Assembly (NCBI GenBank): GCA_019694975.1
Contig: JAIBAY010000001.1
Coordinates: forward strand, 502,732-566,731
DNA from: Chitinophagales bacterium
Lineage (GTDB): Bacteria; Bacteroidota; Bacteroidia; Chitinophagales; UBA10324
Direction: 5' to 3'
DNA length: 64,000 nucleotides
The notes beneath the pieces were generated by a model that was not told the origin of the DNA, did not search any database, and saw only the letters and a list, made by a program, of their open reading frames with translations. Each line of letters starts with the position of its first letter. Position 1 is the stretch's first letter. Made by a program: the position numbers and the translations under genes. Positions 20,574-54,581 of this stretch are shown piece after piece.

Positions 20574-20693
20574 TACACCGCCCCCGTGCTTCCTCCTGAA
20601 GGCTTGCGCAGCGAGGTGGCGGGACACGTGGGAATTCTTGGTCTGTATCTCAAAATTAGCAATACACTTTCTTATCTTACATCGCCGCTGCGT
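20574..20693 (+). repeat. Solo left end of the RAYT-like element
   Basis: These 120 bases match the left end of the element at 23468-23585 almost throughout, from TACACCGCCCCCGTG to CATCGCCGCTGC, with a handful of substitutions. It contains the terminal hairpin (CCCGTG..GGTGGCGGGACACG). No transposase follows. It fuses to and truncates the dioxygenase-like gene. Directly after it lie two tandem copies of GGAGGACATCCCG (20700-20727) and a small hairpin GAGGATTAAAAATCCTC (about 20733-20749). Confidence 0.8.
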
Positions 20694-21089
20694 CAAAATC
20701 GGAGGACATCCCGCGGAGGACATCCCGTGTTACGAGGATTAAAAATCCTCTTCTCATAAAGCCCGGATTACAAATCATAGGTGTTCGAAACCTTCAGAAC
20801 CCATAACTGGCGTAACTTTCATTCATATTTCTATTAGGAAAAGTGAACATAAAATTCTATCTCAAATAGTCATGAACTATTCTCCCCTCAGGAAAAGCAT
20901 GGTGCCAATTGTAACCCATTGCATTTTCAGTATAAAAATCTCTAAAGCAGATTGCCTGTAACGTATGCCCAGCAAGCTTTTGAGCATGTTCCGAACAGAA
21001 GTGATTACAAATCCGGACTAACGGGGAAAGAAGTTTGACCTTCTTAAATCATTTACTGAAAACTTCTAAATAGTCACAAAGAGCATCTC
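20694..21089. other. Gap with no gene recognised
   Basis: Apart from the tandem 13-14-mer and the small hairpin next to the solo element end, nothing was recognised in these 396 bases. The missing N-terminal part of the dioxygenase-like gene is not here. Confidence 0.4.
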
Positions 21090-23466: not shown

Positions 23467-24336
23467 TTACACCGCCCCCGTGTCTCCGCCTGAAGTCTTG
23501 CGCAGCGAGGTGGCGGGACACGTGGTAATTCTTGGTCTGTATCTCAAAATTAGCATTACACTTTCTTATCTTACATCGCCGCTGCATCTCCACTTGCGGG
23601 TAGGTGTTGTTAAGGACGAGAGATTGGGTTATTATGATTGACTCTTATTTCCCAAATATATTTATCATCTTATTTATGCCGGTAAAAACTATTAAGGATC
23701 TTCCCAATGAACTTTACTGCTGTACATTTACCTGCACTAATTGGCTGTCGTTGTTTGAAATTACCAAATCGTATGATAGAGTTTACAATTGGTTCAGCAT
23801 TGCACACAAGTGTGGATTCCGAACTTGTGCTTTTGTCATTATGCCAAATCATTTACATTTTATCATCGCCACACCCTATCGCAATTCGAATTTGAATAAG
23901 CTTATTGGCAATGGTAAAAGGTTTCTGGCATACGATATCGTTGAACAGTTAAAGAAAACTGTATAAGCAAATTTGCTTCAGCAATTGGTTGATGAAGTTA
24001 TTCCCAGTGACCGCAAGAGAGGCAAACTTCACCAGGTGTTCAAACCTTCATTTGATGGGAAGTCTCATTACCAGCGAAAAGATGCTTTTCCAAAACATAA
24101 CCTACATACATCACAATCCGGTAAAAGGTAAATGGAACCTGGTTAGTGATTATGTTTTATTGGAGCATTCAAGCGCTGCATTTCATGAATCAGGAATATC
24201 CTGCAAATTTCCGCTAACCCATTATTCAGAAATTTTAAGTGGTTAGATGATAAATTATTTAAGACACCTATGAATTCCCCCGTGTCCCGCCACCGCTCAG
24301 CACAAACCTGCAGGCGGAGACACGGGGGCGGTGTAA
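23467..24336 (+). mobile_element. RAYT/IS200-like element with perfect 26-bp inverted ends
   Basis: The ends at 23467-23492 and 24311-24336 are exact inverted repeats of 26 bases starting TTACACCGCCCCCGTGTCTC. Each end also folds internally, the CGTGTCTCCGCC arm pairing with a nearby GGTGGCGGGACACG, giving REP-like palindromes. Between them is a Y1 (HUH) transposase relic. The element is 870 bp and interrupts the IS21 remnant. A solo left end lies at 20574-20693. Confidence 0.8.
23676..24246 (+). pseudogene. Y1/RAYT-type transposase, nonsense plus frameshift
   Basis: The frame from ATG 23676 reads MPVKTIKDLPNELYCCTFTC and contains the HUH motif MPNHLHF and LNKLIGNGKRFLAYDIVEQL. It meets TAA at 23964-23966, yet the same frame continues with LLQQLVDEVIPSDRKRGKLH and QVFKPSFDGKSHYQRK. 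Near 24080 a shift moves the coding sense into another frame, YIHHNPVKGKWNLVSDY, LLEHSSAAFHESG, which is the usual end of this family. HUH transposases nick single-stranded hairpins through a Tyr. This copy is inactive unless helped in trans. Confidence 0.85.
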
Positions 24337-24538
24337 AAAAGGCTGTGTTGGCAGTTAAATCAAGTGGAAATAGTCCTGCTGATTCAGCTGGAATGAAAGT
24401 GCAACCGGAAACCTTATTTCCATCATGCACATCCGCAAATATTTTGTTGGCAGTAATGTTACAGAAAGCCAACTGAATGACGATTATCATATAGCATACT
24501 GACAAAAGTCAACAAATGTTTTAAGAGTATAGCGACCT
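24337..24538. other. Right flank of the mobile element, nothing recognised
   Basis: The rest of istB does not resume here, so the insertion was accompanied or followed by a deletion or rearrangement. Short frames on both strands have no recognised family. Confidence 0.35.
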
Positions 24539-24937
24539 TTGACCCGTAAAGTAGTGAAACAATTATCGCACATATTATTGATAATCATTTTCCTTCCATA
24601 CCTATTTCAAGGATTGGCATTTGTTGACTATTATGTTCGCCTTGAGTACTATTCGACAGTGCTTTGTGAGAACAAAGAAAAACCTGAATTGAAATGCAAC
24701 GGAAAATGTCAAATTAAGCATTTTATCAATGATAATTATGGCGAAAGTAAAAAACCGACATTGCCCCCAAGTCAATTTAAATTTGAGGCATTGATTACCG
24801 ACCCATCTGTAAAGAATGATTATAAATATTTAGTCAAGGCCTCTTCATTCAATATCTTCTATGATAAATTAATCGTGGAAGAAGGGGTTATCTTTAGAGT
24901 GTGGCAACCGCCAGAAAAAGAGTTTAATCAGGCATGA
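24539..24937 (+). CDS. Small membrane-anchored protein with CNGKC motif
   Basis: This 132-residue protein has one N-terminal TM helix (HILLIIIFLPYLFQGLAFV) followed by YYVRLEYYSTVLCENKEKPE and the motif CNGKC. Bacteroidota carry an uncharacterised family with the same TM - LCENKxKP - CNGKC layout, often near metal-uptake or copper genes. The paired Cys could bind a metal or form a disulfide in the periplasm. The frame starts at TTG 24539; a GTG at 24554 is an alternative. It lies 81 bp before the MbnP gene and probably belongs to its operon. Confidence 0.75.
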   Translation: MTRKVVKQLSHILLIIIFLPYLFQGLAFVDYYVRLEYYSTVLCENKEKPELKCNGKCQIKHFINDNYGESKKPTLPPSQFKFEALITDPSVKNDYKYLVKASSFNIFYDKLIVEEGVIFRVWQPPEKEFNQA

Positions 24938-25018
24938 GATTTCTATTTCTGTCCGATTAAACTAAATAATGGAAAGCATTTGCATTAAAAATATTCAAAA
25001 CTTTAAAAGTTAATAAAC

Positions 25019-25783
25019 ATGAAATCATTTTCAAAAATACCGCTATCATTAAGTTTATTCTTTATGATAGCCATTGTTTCCTCTTGTAAAAAGGAGGAAC
25101 CCACACCCACACCCACAAAAGGTGATGTTAAGGTAGAGGTAAATTATGTGTTTGGTTCCAGTGCTTTGCCTTGGGATGTTAATCAAACCATGGTACATCC
25201 TGCAACAGGCGACACTCTTACTTTCACTGAATTTGCATTTTATTTGTCAAACGTAAAACTGAAAAAGGAAGATGGCACTTGGTGGTCTGAACCGGAGAGC
25301 TATCATTTAATTTGTGCTAAGTGCACAGAAAAAAACATGTTTATCATGAAAGATGTACCTGCCGGCATATACACCGAAATGGCCTATACCTTAGGTGTTG
25401 ACAGCCTTCGCAATGTATCTGGCGCGCAAACTGGTGATCTGTCGCCAACAAAAGGAATGTTTTGGGATTGGAATACCGGCTACATTATGATAAAAGCCGA
25501 GGGTTCATCTCCTCAAAGTCCTACTGGAACATTTACATTTCACCTTGGAGGCTTTTCAGGGCCGAATAATATAGTTACACCCAAAACTATTACATTTGGA
25601 AGTGCTGTAGTTAATGTTGCAGAACCAGCTATACCTACTATTGTATTACAGGCAAATCCTGCTCGACTTTGGCATACTTCACCGAGCGTGAGCGTAACCA
25701 GTGCTATTCACATGCCTGGGCCCGAAGCAAAAATTATGGCTGACGATTTCTTTGGAAATATTTCATTTACAGAAATTAAATAG
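25019..25783 (+). CDS. MbnP-like lipoprotein
   Basis: This 254-residue lipoprotein (leader ending FFMIAIVSSC) has the MbnP-like domain: VKVEVNYVFGSSALPWDVNQ, TLTFTEFAFYLSNVKLKKED, GTWWSEPESYHLI, the segment with GMFWDWNTGYIMIKAEG, and FHLGGFSG. MbnP proteins occur with the di-heme enzyme MbnH, which in a studied methanotroph pair oxidises a Trp of MbnP to kynurenine and creates a copper site. The conserved WDWNTGY supplies candidate Trp residues. The di-heme partner follows immediately. Confidence 0.88.
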   Translation: MKSFSKIPLSLSLFFMIAIVSSCKKEEPTPTPTKGDVKVEVNYVFGSSALPWDVNQTMVHPATGDTLTFTEFAFYLSNVKLKKEDGTWWSEPESYHLICAKCTEKNMFIMKDVPAGIYTEMAYTLGVDSLRNVSGAQTGDLSPTKGMFWDWNTGYIMIKAEGSSPQSPTGTFTFHLGGFSGPNNIVTPKTITFGSAVVNVAEPAIPTIVLQANPARLWHTSPSVSVTSAIHMPGPEAKIMADDFFGNISFTEIK

Positions 25784-25784
25784 T

Positions 25785-26840
25785 TTGCCTTCTTTTTCTT
25801 TAGTAGTCTATTTAATCAGGAAGAGCAGTGCGCTGCTCTTCCTGATATTCCTTTTGTCATCATGTCAAAAAGATCTTGCCGAACCGCAAACGATTGACCC
25901 ACTGAACAATCCTATTCGTCCGGCTCATTTTCCCCCTGCATGCTATAATTACGAAAACAATGCTTACTCCAAAAAGGGCTTCGAGTTAGGGCGTAAACTT
26001 TTTTTTGATCCTATACTTTCAGTAGATAATAGTATTTCATGTGGAAGTTGCCACCATCAAAAAGATGCATTTGCTGATGGAGGTCGGAAGCTAAGTATTG
26101 GCGTCTTTGGGCAAACTGCAGATAGGAACAGCCTGGCTATTATCAATATGGCATGGAATACTTCTTTTATGTGGGATGGAGGAATAAATCATTTAGAAGT
26201 TCAGCCATTTTCACCAATTATCAACCCTAAAGAAATGGGTGAAGATTTAAACAACGTAATTACTAAACTTCGCAGCCATTCTGAATATCCAGCCCTTTTT
26301 CAAAATGTATTTACGGAAACGCCCCTAGATGATCAACAATTGTTTTTTGCATTAGCTCAATACATGGGTAATCTTGTCTCTGCTAACAGTCGCTATGATA
26401 AATATATAAAGGGTGAGATTTCATTTTCACAAGATGAAATCATTGGGTTGAATGTTTTTCGAGCGAACTGTGCTGGATGCCATGAAGAACCATTATTTAC
26501 CGATTACTCATTTCAAAATAATGGGTTAGATACTTTGTTTCTGGATAAAGGAAGATATCGAATTACTCAGGATAGCAATGACTTGGGTAAATTTAAGACA
26601 CCGACACTTCGAAACATAATGCTTACAGCACCTTATATGCATGATGGAAGATTTGAAAATATTCAAGATGTAATTAATCACTATTCCGCTGGAATAAAAT
26701 ATTCCAATACATTATCTTCTTTATTACAAAATCATGTTGGGGGTATTCAAATGAGCAATTCAGAGAAACAGGCCTTAATTGATTTCTTGCACACTTTAAC
26801 TGATTATGAATTTATAAGTAATGCAGATTTATCAGAATAG
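25785..26840 (+). CDS. MbnH-like di-heme cytochrome-c peroxidase, lipoprotein
   Basis: This protein has two c-type heme sites, CGSCH (Cys86, Cys89, His90) and CAGCH (Cys229, Cys232, His233), in the bacterial cytochrome-c peroxidase/MauG fold; a DGRF and a QMSNSEKQALIDFLHTL end are family-typical. A lipobox (LIFLLSSC) sits about 20 residues in. I chose TTG at 25785 as start because it gives a proper leader one base after the MbnP stop; the upstream ATG at 25701 would overlap MbnP by 83 bases and add a non-leader peptide. It probably modifies MbnP in the periplasm. Confidence 0.88.
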   Translation: MPSFSLVVYLIRKSSALLFLIFLLSSCQKDLAEPQTIDPLNNPIRPAHFPPACYNYENNAYSKKGFELGRKLFFDPILSVDNSISCGSCHHQKDAFADGGRKLSIGVFGQTADRNSLAIINMAWNTSFMWDGGINHLEVQPFSPIINPKEMGEDLNNVITKLRSHSEYPALFQNVFTETPLDDQQLFFALAQYMGNLVSANSRYDKYIKGEISFSQDEIIGLNVFRANCAGCHEEPLFTDYSFQNNGLDTLFLDKGRYRITQDSNDLGKFKTPTLRNIMLTAPYMHDGRFENIQDVINHYSAGIKYSNTLSSLLQNHVGGIQMSNSEKQALIDFLHTLTDYEFISNADLSE

Positions 26841-27375
26841 TATATTACGATAGCAAAATAACCTTTTTGTTAGGTGCGTAACTAAAAAATTGACTTGATG
26901 ATGCTAACAAGGTAAACACTACTGCCAACAGCACCTACAAGAAATTGGCATTCCAGTGGTTAAATGAAGCTTTGTGCCTCTATTCAAATTCAGTGCAAGT
27001 TGAAAGTTTTGTGCTCCGAAATCGCCAACTTCTTGTAGCTGTAAACCGTTGTAAGGCATTAACGATGCCGCCCTTAAAAGTCCTGTTGCTTTGATCCAAT
27101 CTCTTTTGCTCTTGCTCATTTTGCTATTTTTTTGCCATTTTATTTACGTATATAAAATTAATCCGATTAAAATTTTTGAGGGGGCAAGTGCCGATTTCTC
27201 AGTTGAATGTGTTGGATAGAACTGCAGCCAATGGTTTGCCTCTACCTGTAAGATAGATTTTCAGCATCAAACTTCATTCGGAGAGTTGAACTTTCAGTTT
27301 TCGCAAATGCGTCTGCGAACTATGTATCCCACCTTTAGGGTAAGTGCCGCTATGTTGTGTTTTTATTCTTTGGTT
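26841..27375. repeat. Islet intergenic region with a third boundary-like repeat
   Basis: No gene was convincing in 535 bases; a 66-codon minus-strand frame at 26919-27119 has no recognised family. At 27182-27222 there is a gapped relative of repeats A and B (GTGCCGATTT, then AATG, GTTG, AGAAC). It lies about 150 bases downstream, on the minus strand, of the membrane-protein gene that stops at 27376. GTTAGGTGCG occurs at about 26870. Confidence 0.45.
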
Positions 27376-28050
27376 TCAATTGCCCTTTGTGAGCTGTCTG
27401 ATTGCTACCAAGTGTCCAAATAAAACTGTCGGGACAACAATTGCAGGTAATAGATTGAATGGAAAATATAAAATAGCAACGTTCGGCTGGTCAAATGCTA
27501 ACATCTGGAATGGTGATGGAAATGCAAATATCGCCGTAATAACCACGTTTAGCAGAAGCAACAGGCAAATGATATTCCATAGCAACAAGAGCTTTTTGTT
27601 TTGGCCGGTTGTCCGAAAAACCAAATAGCCAACAATAGGCGCAGTAATACCGGAAAACAAGTCAAAGTTTGTCCCCTCAAATGTCATAAACACAGATACA
27701 AGGCCTTGATGAAAAAGCGAAGCCAAAACAAATTCTACCGGTATGCGAATGCTGTGGAAATATGTCAGCGTTTGTAAGTTAATATTGTCTATAAACCTTC
27801 TGCCTTTTGATGTCATAAAAGTGCATGCAATAGACGCCAAAGCCGGGAAAATTCCAAACAACATCAGTCTTGGCGGCATGGCTTGTGTGTCCTGGTAAAT
27901 TCTACTAAGCGCAATCACAGATTGTATAATTGTCCACCCGATTGCCACAAGCAAGAAAGCTTTTGATCCGGATGCAATGTAGAACCAAATAATTGTCCCG
28001 ATTACTGTTAATCCGAATGAAAGGGAGATGTATACCTGCACATTTTCCAT
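27376..28050 (-). CDS. Polytopic membrane protein, unknown
   Basis: This 224-residue protein has about seven hydrophobic helices, starting VYISLSFGLTVIGTIIWFYI and ending LPAIVVPTVLFGHLVAIRQL. The N-terminus MENVQ is outside the first helix. Charged loops are short, with KGRRFIDN and TGQNKK on what is probably the cytoplasmic side. I recognise no transporter motif. It is a lone AT-rich gene of the islet with a repeat relative downstream. Confidence 0.75.
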   Translation of the reverse strand: MENVQVYISLSFGLTVIGTIIWFYIASGSKAFLLVAIGWTIIQSVIALSRIYQDTQAMPPRLMLFGIFPALASIACTFMTSKGRRFIDNINLQTLTYFHSIRIPVEFVLASLFHQGLVSVFMTFEGTNFDLFSGITAPIVGYLVFRTTGQNKKLLLLWNIICLLLLLNVVITAIFAFPSPFQMLAFDQPNVAILYFPFNLLPAIVVPTVLFGHLVAIRQLTKGN

Positions 28051-51491: not shown

Positions 51492-54400
51492 ATGATAAAA
51501 TCATTGAAGCTCGGCATCATACTGCTCTTATGGCTGAGCAGTTCATTAGTAAAGGCACAAGGCACCATGGCTGTTACCGGCACAGTATCTGATGGAGCCG
51601 GCCCGCTGATCGGTGCAGTCATCGTAGAAAAAGGAACACAGAATGGAGTAGTCTCCGATGAAAATGGAGATTTTGCCATTAACGTGGCAGGCAAATCATC
51701 CATACTCCTATTTTCCTATGTCGGCCATAAAGACCAGGAAATAGCCGTAGGTAATCAGTCCACCATCAATGTTTCGCTGCAAAATGAAGACCTGCTTAAT
51801 GAAATTGTAGTAGTGGGTTATGGTACGCAGAAGAAAAGTGTAACCACCGGCGCCATTTCAAAAGTGCGCGGCGATGATCTTGAAAGTATGCCCGTCATGC
51901 GCATTGAGCAATCGCTGCAGGGCAGAACCTCCGGTGTTTGGGTTACTTCCAGCTCCGGCTCACCCGGCGCTGCGGCTACGGTAAGGGTGCGCGGCACAAC
52001 ATCCATTAACGACTCCAATCCGCTCTATGTGGTAGACGGCGTACCGATTAATGGTGGCATTGACTACCTGAACCAGGGCGATATTGAAAGTATTGAGGTG
52101 CTGAAAGATGCAGCCTCTGCAGCAATTTATGGTGCAAGGTCGGCTAACGGCGTCATCCTGGTTACTACCAAAAAAGGCAAGAAAGACATGATGGAAGTGT
52201 CATTGAACAGTTATTATGGAATACAAAATCCAACAAAAAAACTCTCCCTGCTGAATGCTACGCAATATGCCATCCTCATGAATGAATCATCGGTAGCAGC
52301 AGGTGGCGATGTATTGTTTTCCAATCCTGATTCTCTAGGGGAAGGCACAGACTGGCAGGATGCAGTGTTTGAAAAAAATGCACCTGTTCAGAATCATGAT
52401 CTCAGCATCTCGGCAGGATCAGGTAAATCATTGTATTATGGTTCCTTCAGCTATTTCGATCAGACCGGTATCGTATCCTCCAGCCAGTCCAGTTTTCAAC
52501 GTTACTCCGTTAGGTTCAATGGCACACATAATATCAGTAAATACATCACGGTAGGGCATACGCTGGGATATACCCGTAATAACGGCCAGGGTGTTCCGGA
52601 CAATACCGAATATGGTTCACCGCTCGGACGCGCCATCAACATCGATCCCATCACGCCGCTGATTGAAACAAGGCCCGATGTATTGAACAGCAATATATTT
52701 CAAAATTTTGCCGTGGTGCTCGATGATAACGGACAGCCCTATGGCATTTCTCCCTACGTAACATCGGAAATTGTAAATCCTGTTGCAGCCATTAAAGTGA
52801 ACCAAAGCAATGGCTGGGGTGATAAGATTGCAGGAAATGTATTTCTTGAGTTGATGCCTTTCAAAGGATTCAAATACCGTAGCGCTTATGGTGTTGACTT
52901 TGCGTACTGGGGCGCCGAAAGCTTTTCACCCGTCTATTACCTGAATGCCTCCAACCGGCTCGATATTAACCGGTATGCCCGTTCACAAAACCGCGGTGTG
53001 TATTGGAACTGGGATAACACTATTTCTTACCAGAAAACATTCCTTGAAAAACACAACTTCAATTTCCTCGCCGGCATGGTGGCAGAACATAACCAGGGCG
53101 AAGGCCTCAGTGGTTCTGTGCAGGACATTCCCGCTGATGATATTTCAAATGCTTCACTGTTGTATGCCGTTTCCCCCGAAAATCAGGGCTTTGGCGGTTA
53201 TGAATATGAAGGTGCACTGGTTTCCTACCTCGGCCGAATCACTTATGACTATGCAGGTAAATATCTTTTCTCTGCGCTTTTCAGGGTGGATGGATCACCC
53301 AAATTTGGCGAGAATTATCGCTATGGAACTTTTCCATCCGTATCCGCAGGATGGGTGGTTACAGAGGAAGAATTCTTAAAGTATAATGACTATATCAATT
53401 TCTTAAAGATCAGGGGCTCATGGGGCATAAACGGTAATGATAAGATCGGCGATTTTCGCTTTGTCTCCACCATTGGCGGCTTCCGCAATTATACTTTCGG
53501 TGTTGACGAATCACTCATCAACGGTTCCACACCTAATGCACTGGCCAATCCTGACCTTCGCTGGGAAGAGACGAAGCAGACCAATTTCGGTTTTGATGCA
53601 AGAATATTCAAAGACTTCACGCTGACCTTTGACTGGTTCATCAAAAAAACCAGCGGCATGTTGCTGGACATTGCAGTGCCGGGTTATGTAGGCAATGCCG
53701 GACCGGTTGGCAATATTGCATCGATGGAAAACAAAGGAATTGAATTTGAATTAGGCTACTCCAAAAAAATCGGGGAAGTGGCGCTGGATATAAGCGGTAA
53801 CCTGTCGCACTTTACAAATGTTGTAACAGACCTTGGTCCTGACAAAGAATATATTGTCGGACAAACATTCAGTCCGCAGGCTTTGGAAATCACACGCACC
53901 TCAGTGGGTGAGCCATTTGGTTATTTTTTTGGTTATCAGACTGACGGCATCTTTCAGAACCAGGACGAAATCAACAGCTACGTGGGTAACGATGGCATGC
54001 TCCTTCAACCGGACGCAACGCCCGGCGACTTCAGGTTCGTTGATATCAATAGTGACGGCATTATTGATGCAGACGACCGTACAAAAATCGGTGACCCGGT
54101 TCCTGACTTAGTGTATGGGTTCACTGTTGGAGCAAGCTGGAAAGGCTTTGACATTCTTTTATTCGGACAAGGTGTAGCCGGTGTGCAGGTATTTGATGCC
54201 ACCCGCAGGTTTGATCTGCAAATGGCCAACATGACGACTGATGCACTCGACCGCTGGACGGGAGAAGGCACTTCAGATGCCTATCCGCACCTGGTGATGA
54301 ATGACCCTAACAAGAACTTCAGCAGTTCCTCTGATTTTTATGTGAAAGATGCATCCTTCTTCCGCATCCGCACCTTACAACTGGGTTATACCCTGCCACT

Positions 54401-54581
54401 GGAAATCACTTCAAAAGCCGGCATCAAAAAAGTACGGGTTTATATTTCAGGAAACAACATTGGCACCATCACAAAATATGATGGATTCGATCCTGAAATC
54501 GGCGGCAGCAGTTTTGGAGTGGACCGGGGCGTCTATCCACAGGCGACGTCGTTCCTCATCGGTGGTAATATCACATTTTAG
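51492..54581 (+). CDS. SusC/RagA-type TonB-linked outer-membrane transporter
   Basis: This 1029-residue protein has a signal peptide, a carboxypeptidase-D-like N-terminal domain (GTVSDGAGPLIGAVIVEKG, about 27-105), a plug domain with NEIVVVGYGTQKKSVTTGAI and DGVPINGGIDYLNQGDIESI (SusC signature), and a 22-strand barrel ending FLIGGNITF. It imports oligosaccharides using the TonB proton-motive force, with SusD as lid. Stop and susD start are 41 bp apart. Confidence 0.96.
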   Translation: MIKSLKLGIILLLWLSSSLVKAQGTMAVTGTVSDGAGPLIGAVIVEKGTQNGVVSDENGDFAINVAGKSSILLFSYVGHKDQEIAVGNQSTINVSLQNEDLLNEIVVVGYGTQKKSVTTGAISKVRGDDLESMPVMRIEQSLQGRTSGVWVTSSSGSPGAAATVRVRGTTSINDSNPLYVVDGVPINGGIDYLNQGDIESIEVLKDAASAAIYGARSANGVILVTTKKGKKDMMEVSLNSYYGIQNPTKKLSLLNATQYAILMNESSVAAGGDVLFSNPDSLGEGTDWQDAVFEKNAPVQNHDLSISAGSGKSLYYGSFSYFDQTGIVSSSQSSFQRYSVRFNGTHNISKYITVGHTLGYTRNNGQGVPDNTEYGSPLGRAINIDPITPLIETRPDVLNSNIFQNFAVVLDDNGQPYGISPYVTSEIVNPVAAIKVNQSNGWGDKIAGNVFLELMPFKGFKYRSAYGVDFAYWGAESFSPVYYLNASNRLDINRYARSQNRGVYWNWDNTISYQKTFLEKHNFNFLAGMVAEHNQGEGLSGSVQDIPADDISNASLLYAVSPENQGFGGYEYEGALVSYLGRITYDYAGKYLFSALFRVDGSPKFGENYRYGTFPSVSAGWVVTEEEFLKYNDYINFLKIRGSWGINGNDKIGDFRFVSTIGGFRNYTFGVDESLINGSTPNALANPDLRWEETKQTNFGFDARIFKDFTLTFDWFIKKTSGMLLDIAVPGYVGNAGPVGNIASMENKGIEFELGYSKKIGEVALDISGNLSHFTNVVTDLGPDKEYIVGQTFSPQALEITRTSVGEPFGYFFGYQTDGIFQNQDEINSYVGNDGMLLQPDATPGDFRFVDINSDGIIDADDRTKIGDPVPDLVYGFTVGASWKGFDILLFGQGVAGVQVFDATRRFDLQMANMTTDALDRWTGEGTSDAYPHLVMNDPNKNFSSSSDFYVKDASFFRIRTLQLGYTLPLEITSKAGIKKVRVYISGNNIGTITKYDGFDPEIGGSSFGVDRGVYPQATSFLIGGNITF

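Follow-up and report, generated by a model that had tools for sequence, protein, structure and literature searches.

The window analyzed here is a 64,000-nucleotide stretch of the genome of a Chitinophagales bacterium. An earlier reading of this DNA (here, the original prediction) described a three-gene unit in which a small membrane protein precedes an MbnP-like lipoprotein and a di-heme MbnH-like enzyme, and these three genes are present at 24539 to 26840 on the forward strand. The first gene (24539..24937, +) starts with TTG and encodes a membrane-anchored protein of 132 aa that probably is a copper-sensing leader (uORF), as argued below. The protein has a hydrophobic helix at the N-terminus followed by LCENKEKPELKCNGKC; it matched the profile of its own family with E=1.8e-24, while no Pfam or NCBIfam family matched at E<=1. 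The original prediction had pointed to a paired-Cys CNGKC motif; this motif is real but is better described as three cysteines, C43-x9-C53-x-G-x-C57, encoded at 24665..24709 (+). A second feature, absent from that prediction, is P124-P125 (24908..24913, +), which lies in the sequence W-Q-P-P seven residues before the stop and is a proposed arrest motif. In an AlphaFold model of the protein based on a 41-row alignment (mean pLDDT 69.6), residues 2 to 33 form a long helix followed by two short helices; confidence is low after approximately residue 70, and no folded domain was seen beyond the N-terminal helices.

The small gene is separated by 81 nt from the gene for the MbnP-family lipoprotein (25019..25783, +; 254 aa), which scored above the gathering threshold of PF20243 (158.6 bits versus a cut-off of 27; E=2.2e-46) and has the lipoprotein signal ...SSCKK. 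The third gene (25785..26840, +) encodes an MbnH/MauG-like di-heme enzyme with two CXXCH motifs, the lipoprotein signal ...SSCQK and a match to CCP_MauG (PF03150; 181.3 bits, E=2.3e-53). Its top match in the PDB is 6e1c, annotated as "Di-heme enzyme" (1.3e-41), which we take to be MbnH of Methylosinus. Using phmmer against solved structures, we found no relative of the MbnP protein, and none was found for the small family. The single-base spacing between the mbnP and mbnH genes in the original prediction holds if mbnH starts at the proposed TTG at 25785, whereas the longest ORF starts at 25701. A TonB receptor was predicted not to be nearby; profiles built for this analysis matched the window only at 51492-54581, ~25 kb away.

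The kynurenine/copper chemistry of MbnP/MbnH is established in other species. The pair described here resembles the methanobactin-linked pair in that a PF20243 MbnP adjoins a di-heme, MauG-like MbnH. It differs in that both proteins are lipoproteins and both score below the NCBIfam equivalog cut-offs (MbnP, 45.9 bits versus 140 for TIGR04052; MbnH, 232.7 bits versus 362.85 for TIGR04039, its best NCBIfam match).

The small protein belongs to a large family in the Bacteroidota

A profile built on six members (A1) detected the small family in 185 of the 298 genomes of the order, and PF20243 was detected in 254 of 298. A second profile built on 67 members (A2) detected the small family in 160 of the 395 genomes sampled from the phylum. 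The small family is a large one within the Bacteroidota and is not named in Pfam or NCBIfam. Among the best 80 of 475 matches to its Cys motif, the genera include Chitinophaga, Pedobacter, Flavobacterium, Hymenobacter, Spirosoma, Mucilaginibacter and Dyadobacter.

Closer to the window, 4 of the 16 genomes of the taxonomic family, the window's own included, have a match. In three loci of relatives (L008, L009 and L010), the order of small protein, MbnP and MbnH is the same as in the window, while a fourth locus (L011) has the small protein and an outer-membrane-type protein without MbnP. The window's own genome has a second operon on another contig, which encodes a small protein (with CDGKC), an outer-membrane-type protein, a small lipoprotein, MbnP and MbnH. 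Because of this paralogous operon and the recurrence of the arrangement across the order, we do not consider the unit in the window a chance association, and the proposal that MbnP/MbnH units recur together with a linked small Cys protein was borne out.

For the analyses of motifs and gene order, we used two sets of loci. The first comprises 106 loci, i.e. six from the taxonomic family and 100 drawn at random from the 144 listed matches outside it; because the draw was made from listed matches, it leans toward the better ones. The second comprises the 80 loci that are the best of the 475 found by the Cys motif.

Three cysteines and a C-terminal Pro-Pro are held at a near-constant distance

In the first set, CxGxC is present in all 106 proteins, and a third Cys lies exactly 10 residues earlier in 105 of them, giving the motif Cys-x9-Cys-x-Gly-x-Cys just past the membrane helix. 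At the opposite end, Pro-Pro lies 1 to 11 residues before the stop in 185/185 complete proteins of both sets. It is followed by <=10 residues in 105 of the 106 proteins of the first set and by 11 in the remaining one. In the second set, it was placed in 79 of 80 proteins, and the sole exception runs off the contig. By comparison, only 16 of 993 neighboring proteins have Pro-Pro in their last 12 residues, as do 2.9% of shuffles. Because profile A1 already included the Pro-Pro columns, we considered separately the 18 loci in which the match ends before the C-terminus; 17 of these have Pro-Pro, and the exception is the same contig-edge locus. These motif counts include duplicate tails, with 104 and 79 distinct tails in the two sets, three of which are shared.

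The distance from the last Cys to Pro-Pro varies little, i.e. 60-73 residues (median 66, sd 1.9, n=106) in the first set and 63-76 residues (median 66, sd 2.2, n=79) in the second, while the stretch in between is poorly conserved. Across 67 divergent members, only the residues C, C, G, C, P and P are invariant. The residue before Pro-Pro (n=185) is H in 115, R in 23, Q in 17, P in 16, K in 11 and another residue in 3 proteins, and the second residue before it is F in 136 of 185. Thus, the family mostly has FHPP, and the copy in the window reads WQPP.

The small gene lies upstream of MbnP/MbnH and of other copper-type genes

In 104 of the 106 loci, the small gene is followed by a gene on the same strand (1 opposite, 1 off the end), as it is in 79/79 loci of the second set; the gap between the two is <100 nt in 58 of 104. 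On the upstream side, the neighbor is divergent in 39 loci, on the same strand in 62 and off the end in 5. Because a same-strand ORF ends <60 nt upstream in 22 of 101 loci, other genes may in some cases precede the small gene in its operon.

The downstream operons of the 106 loci encode MbnP (41 loci), MbnH (32), a TonB receptor (36), an unnamed outer-membrane-type protein (42), a YtkA-like lipoprotein (17), another lipoprotein (16), a BNR/YHS protein (10), PepSY_TM (7) and SCO1 (4). Where two copies from one genome were sampled, they mostly lie at the head of copper-type operons of different kinds; in one such genome, MbnP-MbnH follows one copy and TonB-PepSY the other. When the best 150 matches to the small family were compared with the best 150 MbnP matches, 31 small genes had a listed MbnP within 8 kb (<=8 kb), and in all 31 listed pairs MbnP is downstream on the same strand, with no opposite-strand pair.

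In the reverse direction, we analyzed 40 MbnP loci drawn at random from 150 listed, excluding the window's own locus. In 18 of these, MbnP is preceded by the small gene, which occupies no other position in any of the 40; MbnH is downstream in 37, of which 20 are without the small gene. The original prediction had allowed that the small family might seldom be next to MbnP/MbnH, in which case its presence here would be chance; the frequencies in both directions (41/106 and 18/40) speak otherwise. We conclude that the small gene is strongly linked to MbnP but neither specific to it nor required by it, because it also heads other types of operons and because MbnP loci without it are common. The 20 MbnP loci with MbnH alone rule out that the small protein is an obligatory third component of the MbnP/MbnH system.

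In a tree of MbnP proteins, those with an upstream small gene cluster together (3 changes versus 14.2 in shuffles), with the MbnP of the window in a separate clade. We observed that the leader-headed and leaderless groups of MbnP/MbnH pairs among the 40 loci (L234-L273) track this tree, hinting at two functional classes.

Two of the partners deserve description in their own right. The outer-membrane-type protein present at 42 of the 106 loci (e.g. the ORF in L145 and L007:4745-5797 (-)) has an N-terminal Cys cluster (CEICGCG, CLGSCC and ACCCTS); one member had no Pfam match, and there was no convincing NCBIfam match. This protein is a candidate copper channel. A BNR-repeat protein with a C-terminal YHS domain (a 493-aa ORF in L141; 10 of the 106 loci) is found mostly in TonB operons headed by the small family.

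RNA and DNA signals around the small gene

In the window, an RNA hairpin (24921..24963, +) begins 8 nt past the codons for Pro-Pro and extends over the stop codon of the small gene (z=-2.56, computed on 24860-25060); it is a possible switch element in this copy only. Across the family, hairpins are not enriched after the small gene, and the z-scores of the intergenic regions match those of control gaps (159 versus 159; Mann-Whitney p=0.44); we therefore rejected a CutF-style hairpin switch as a family-wide feature.

The last 150 nt of the small genes have a C>G bubble (>0.05 in 80% of 186 small genes versus 11% of 1019 controls), which resembles the Rho site of CruR. This bubble arises from codon positions 1 and 2, with no C bias at 4-fold sites, and is missing from the small gene of the window. 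Because it is driven by amino-acid composition and absent from the window gene, we did not count it as support for or against Rho-dependent attenuation.

We found no Rfam match (riboswitch) at 23500-27500. A Bacteroidota-type promoter pattern was not found upstream of the unit, and its sole match in the window lies elsewhere. At 23467-24336, shortly before the operon, two ORFs are flanked by inverted arms of 65 nt (86% complementary), and one of these ORFs is weakly IS200/REP-transposase-like (PF01797, E=0.015, below the cut-off); a third related copy lies at 20574-20694. Within the first codons of mbnH, a perfect inverted repeat of 14 bp followed by a T-rich tail (25815-25846) is terminator-like and could set the MbnP:MbnH ratio; in the scan as a whole, such sites were no more common than in shuffles.

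The small family resembles CruR and CutF and is probably separate from both

The comparisons in this section draw on four papers (PMC9426467, PMC12992588, PMC9973294 and PMC10987492), beyond which our searches for work on FHPP, CNGKC or copper leaders of Bacteroidota found nothing. Both CruR and CutF are leader proteins of proteobacteria that control copper operons by way of a C-terminal proline motif. CruR of Bordetella pertussis (bp2923, DUF2946/PF11162) heads copper operons with TBDT, PepSY_TM, SCO, PCuAC and MbnPH-like genes, and its regulation involves Rho-dependent termination and depends on a CXXC motif, an RAPP motif and the spacing between them, which is kept within one or two residues and which, when lengthened by five residues, causes loss of regulation (PMC9426467). 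Translational arrest of CruR at Pro codons was observed in vitro (PMC12992588). Similar to CruR, the members of the new family are small, exported-type and poorly structured proteins with a Cys motif and a C-terminal Pro-Pro at fixed spacing, and they lie upstream of copper operons with a similar list of partners, i.e. TBDT, PepSY_TM, SCO and MbnPH (PMC9426467). The traits that the new family shares with CruR thus include a Cys-to-Pro-Pro spacing that is constant to within a few residues. The two families differ in that the new one has C-x9-CxGxC and FHPP-type motifs instead of CXXC and RAPP, and a spacing of 66 instead of ~45 residues. Moreover, PF11162 did not match the protein in the window at E<=1 and is absent among the 25 of 34 families listed for the 67 members; we therefore do not assign the new family to DUF2946.

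In CutF of Rhodobacter capsulatus, copper delays export and a hairpin over the next start is used, and no stalled product was observed with the proline motif alone (PMC9973294). The new family shares with CutF and CutF-like proteins the short exported-type protein, the Cys motif and a downstream copper gene on the same strand. As described, CutF differs in that its Cys motif is CxxxC, its end is rich in proline and a hairpin covers the start of cutO. The protein in the window fits those of the rules for collecting CutF-like proteins that concern length (<150 aa), position of PP (in the last 15 residues) and the downstream gene (same strand, within 1000 nt; PMC9973294). Because list D of the CutF-like proteins is rich in Bacteroidota (40% after normalization; PMC9973294), the new family may already be on it. 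Finally, the family resembles RAPP-type peptides and the Bacteroidota Sec-pathway arrest peptides, which lie upstream of secA/secDF/yidC, in combining a short uORF, a localization signal and a C-terminal arrest motif (PMC10987492, PMC12992588).

According to PMC12992588, copper-related RAPP/RGPP uORFs are missing from groups such as the Bacteroidota. We found no match to PF11162 in the window's own genome; in the order, 2 of 149 genomes matched, one of them over the cut-off. The latter match (L274:1417-1824 (+)) ends in RGPP, has CXXC, lies directly before a gene for a TonB receptor and is oriented divergently from a new-family member. Two further short ORFs with RGPP and CXXC (L067:10869-11219 (+) and L120:2131-2457 (+)) also directly precede TonB receptor genes, and at both loci the new family heads the neighboring operon for an outer-membrane protein. 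In all three ORFs, CXXC and RGPP are separated by ~45 residues. Judged by their sequences, these ORFs are CruR-type leaders in Bacteroidota. Both types of leader thus occur side by side in these three clusters and appear to hold the same post.

The small protein probably acts as a copper-sensing leader while being made

We propose, with a probability of roughly 70%, that the small protein is a cis-acting, copper-sensing leader (uORF) of mbnP-mbnH that acts while being made. The observations behind this proposal are the gene order, the motifs, their fixed spacing, the poorly conserved middle, the diverse partners and the co-occurrence with CruR-type leaders. During synthesis, the N-terminal helix would bring the nascent chain to the membrane, after which the three-Cys motif would emerge; the ribosome would then slow or stall at the near-terminal Pro-Pro, and copper bound to the cysteines would alter this stall. 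The outcome of the stall would set the expression of mbnP and mbnH, through either termination or access to the downstream start. As in CruR, stalling and expression would be expected when copper is scarce, and release and shut-off when copper is plentiful. We expect this direction given that the roles of MbnP, TonB receptors and SCO1 appear to lie in the acquisition or delivery of copper.

The opposite sign, in which copper would reinforce the pause and thereby switch the operon on, appears unlikely. CutF, which is exported and senses in the periplasm, behaves in this way (PMC9973294). The short gaps downstream of the small genes (<100 nt in 58/104) are as in CutF-like genes, and the window copy has a hairpin just past Pro-Pro; however, hairpins are not generally enriched, and the partners look like acquisition or delivery genes, which are expected to be repressed by copper.

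Less likely still is the function suggested in the original prediction, that of a copper carrier or assembly factor; anchored in the membrane, the protein would use its three cysteines to pass copper to MbnP or to partners of the TonB/SCO type. A CxGxC just past a membrane helix could plausibly bind Cu(I), the link to copper-type genes is constant, and a membrane-anchored Cys protein could also work in trans. Yet, what is conserved is the Cys motif and an invariant Pro-Pro at a fixed distance from it, with a poorly conserved middle; the residue before Pro-Pro, although mostly H, is R, Q, P or K in 67 of 185 proteins and hence is not a fixed metal ligand. Likewise, the small gene precedes MbnP at every locus that shows both, half of the 40 MbnP loci have MbnH without it, and the wide range of partners includes operons for TonB receptors, PepSY_TM, SCO1 and outer-membrane proteins that are without MbnP. 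Together, the anatomy, the partner range, the upstream position and the leaderless MbnP loci fit a cis-acting leader better than a chaperone. Least probable is a leader for a cue other than copper, such as the periplasmic redox or disulfide state, Zn or heme: a disulfide could form among the three cysteines, the enzyme MbnH contains heme and some His-only CutF-like groups adjoin Ni/Co genes (PMC9973294), but what MbnP, SCO1, YtkA-like, YHS and PepSY_TM proteins and TonB receptors share is best described as copper.

Returning to a copper-sensing leader, we conclude that the new family likely works like CruR and CutF yet is separate from them, with (F)(H/R/Q/K)PP as its motif. For this family, we infer copper binding, arrest, the direction of the switch and the mode of coupling. 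A more specific and tentative suggestion, which we hold with less than even confidence, is that its members are nascent-chain copper switches of the Bacteroidota's own, in which arrest at (F)(H/R/Q/K)PP is combined with a 66-residue ruler through ribosome and translocon and with sensing in the periplasm. A nascent chain takes ~65 residues to reach from the P-site across a translocon, and the ruler argument rests on this figure. With Pro-Pro at the peptidyl-transferase center, the three cysteines would be just at the periplasmic face. Given such a ruler, the leader would read periplasmic copper during its own export and set the MbnP/MbnH, TonB and SCO1 operons. The 66-residue spacing would fit periplasmic sensing, while the 45 residues of CruR fit sensing in the cytoplasm, which is where its authors place it (PMC9426467).

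Copper control in the Bacteroidota is little described in the literature that we searched. If our proposal is correct, a single unnamed family, present in 160 of the 395 genomes sampled from the phylum, would serve as an immediate marker of many copper operons, among them MbnP/MbnH units of bacteria other than methanotrophs. The Bacteroidota gap in RAPP/RGPP copper leaders, as described in PMC12992588, would then be filled by a different motif, and the family would offer an arrest sequence that can be tested directly on ribosomes of Bacteroidota.
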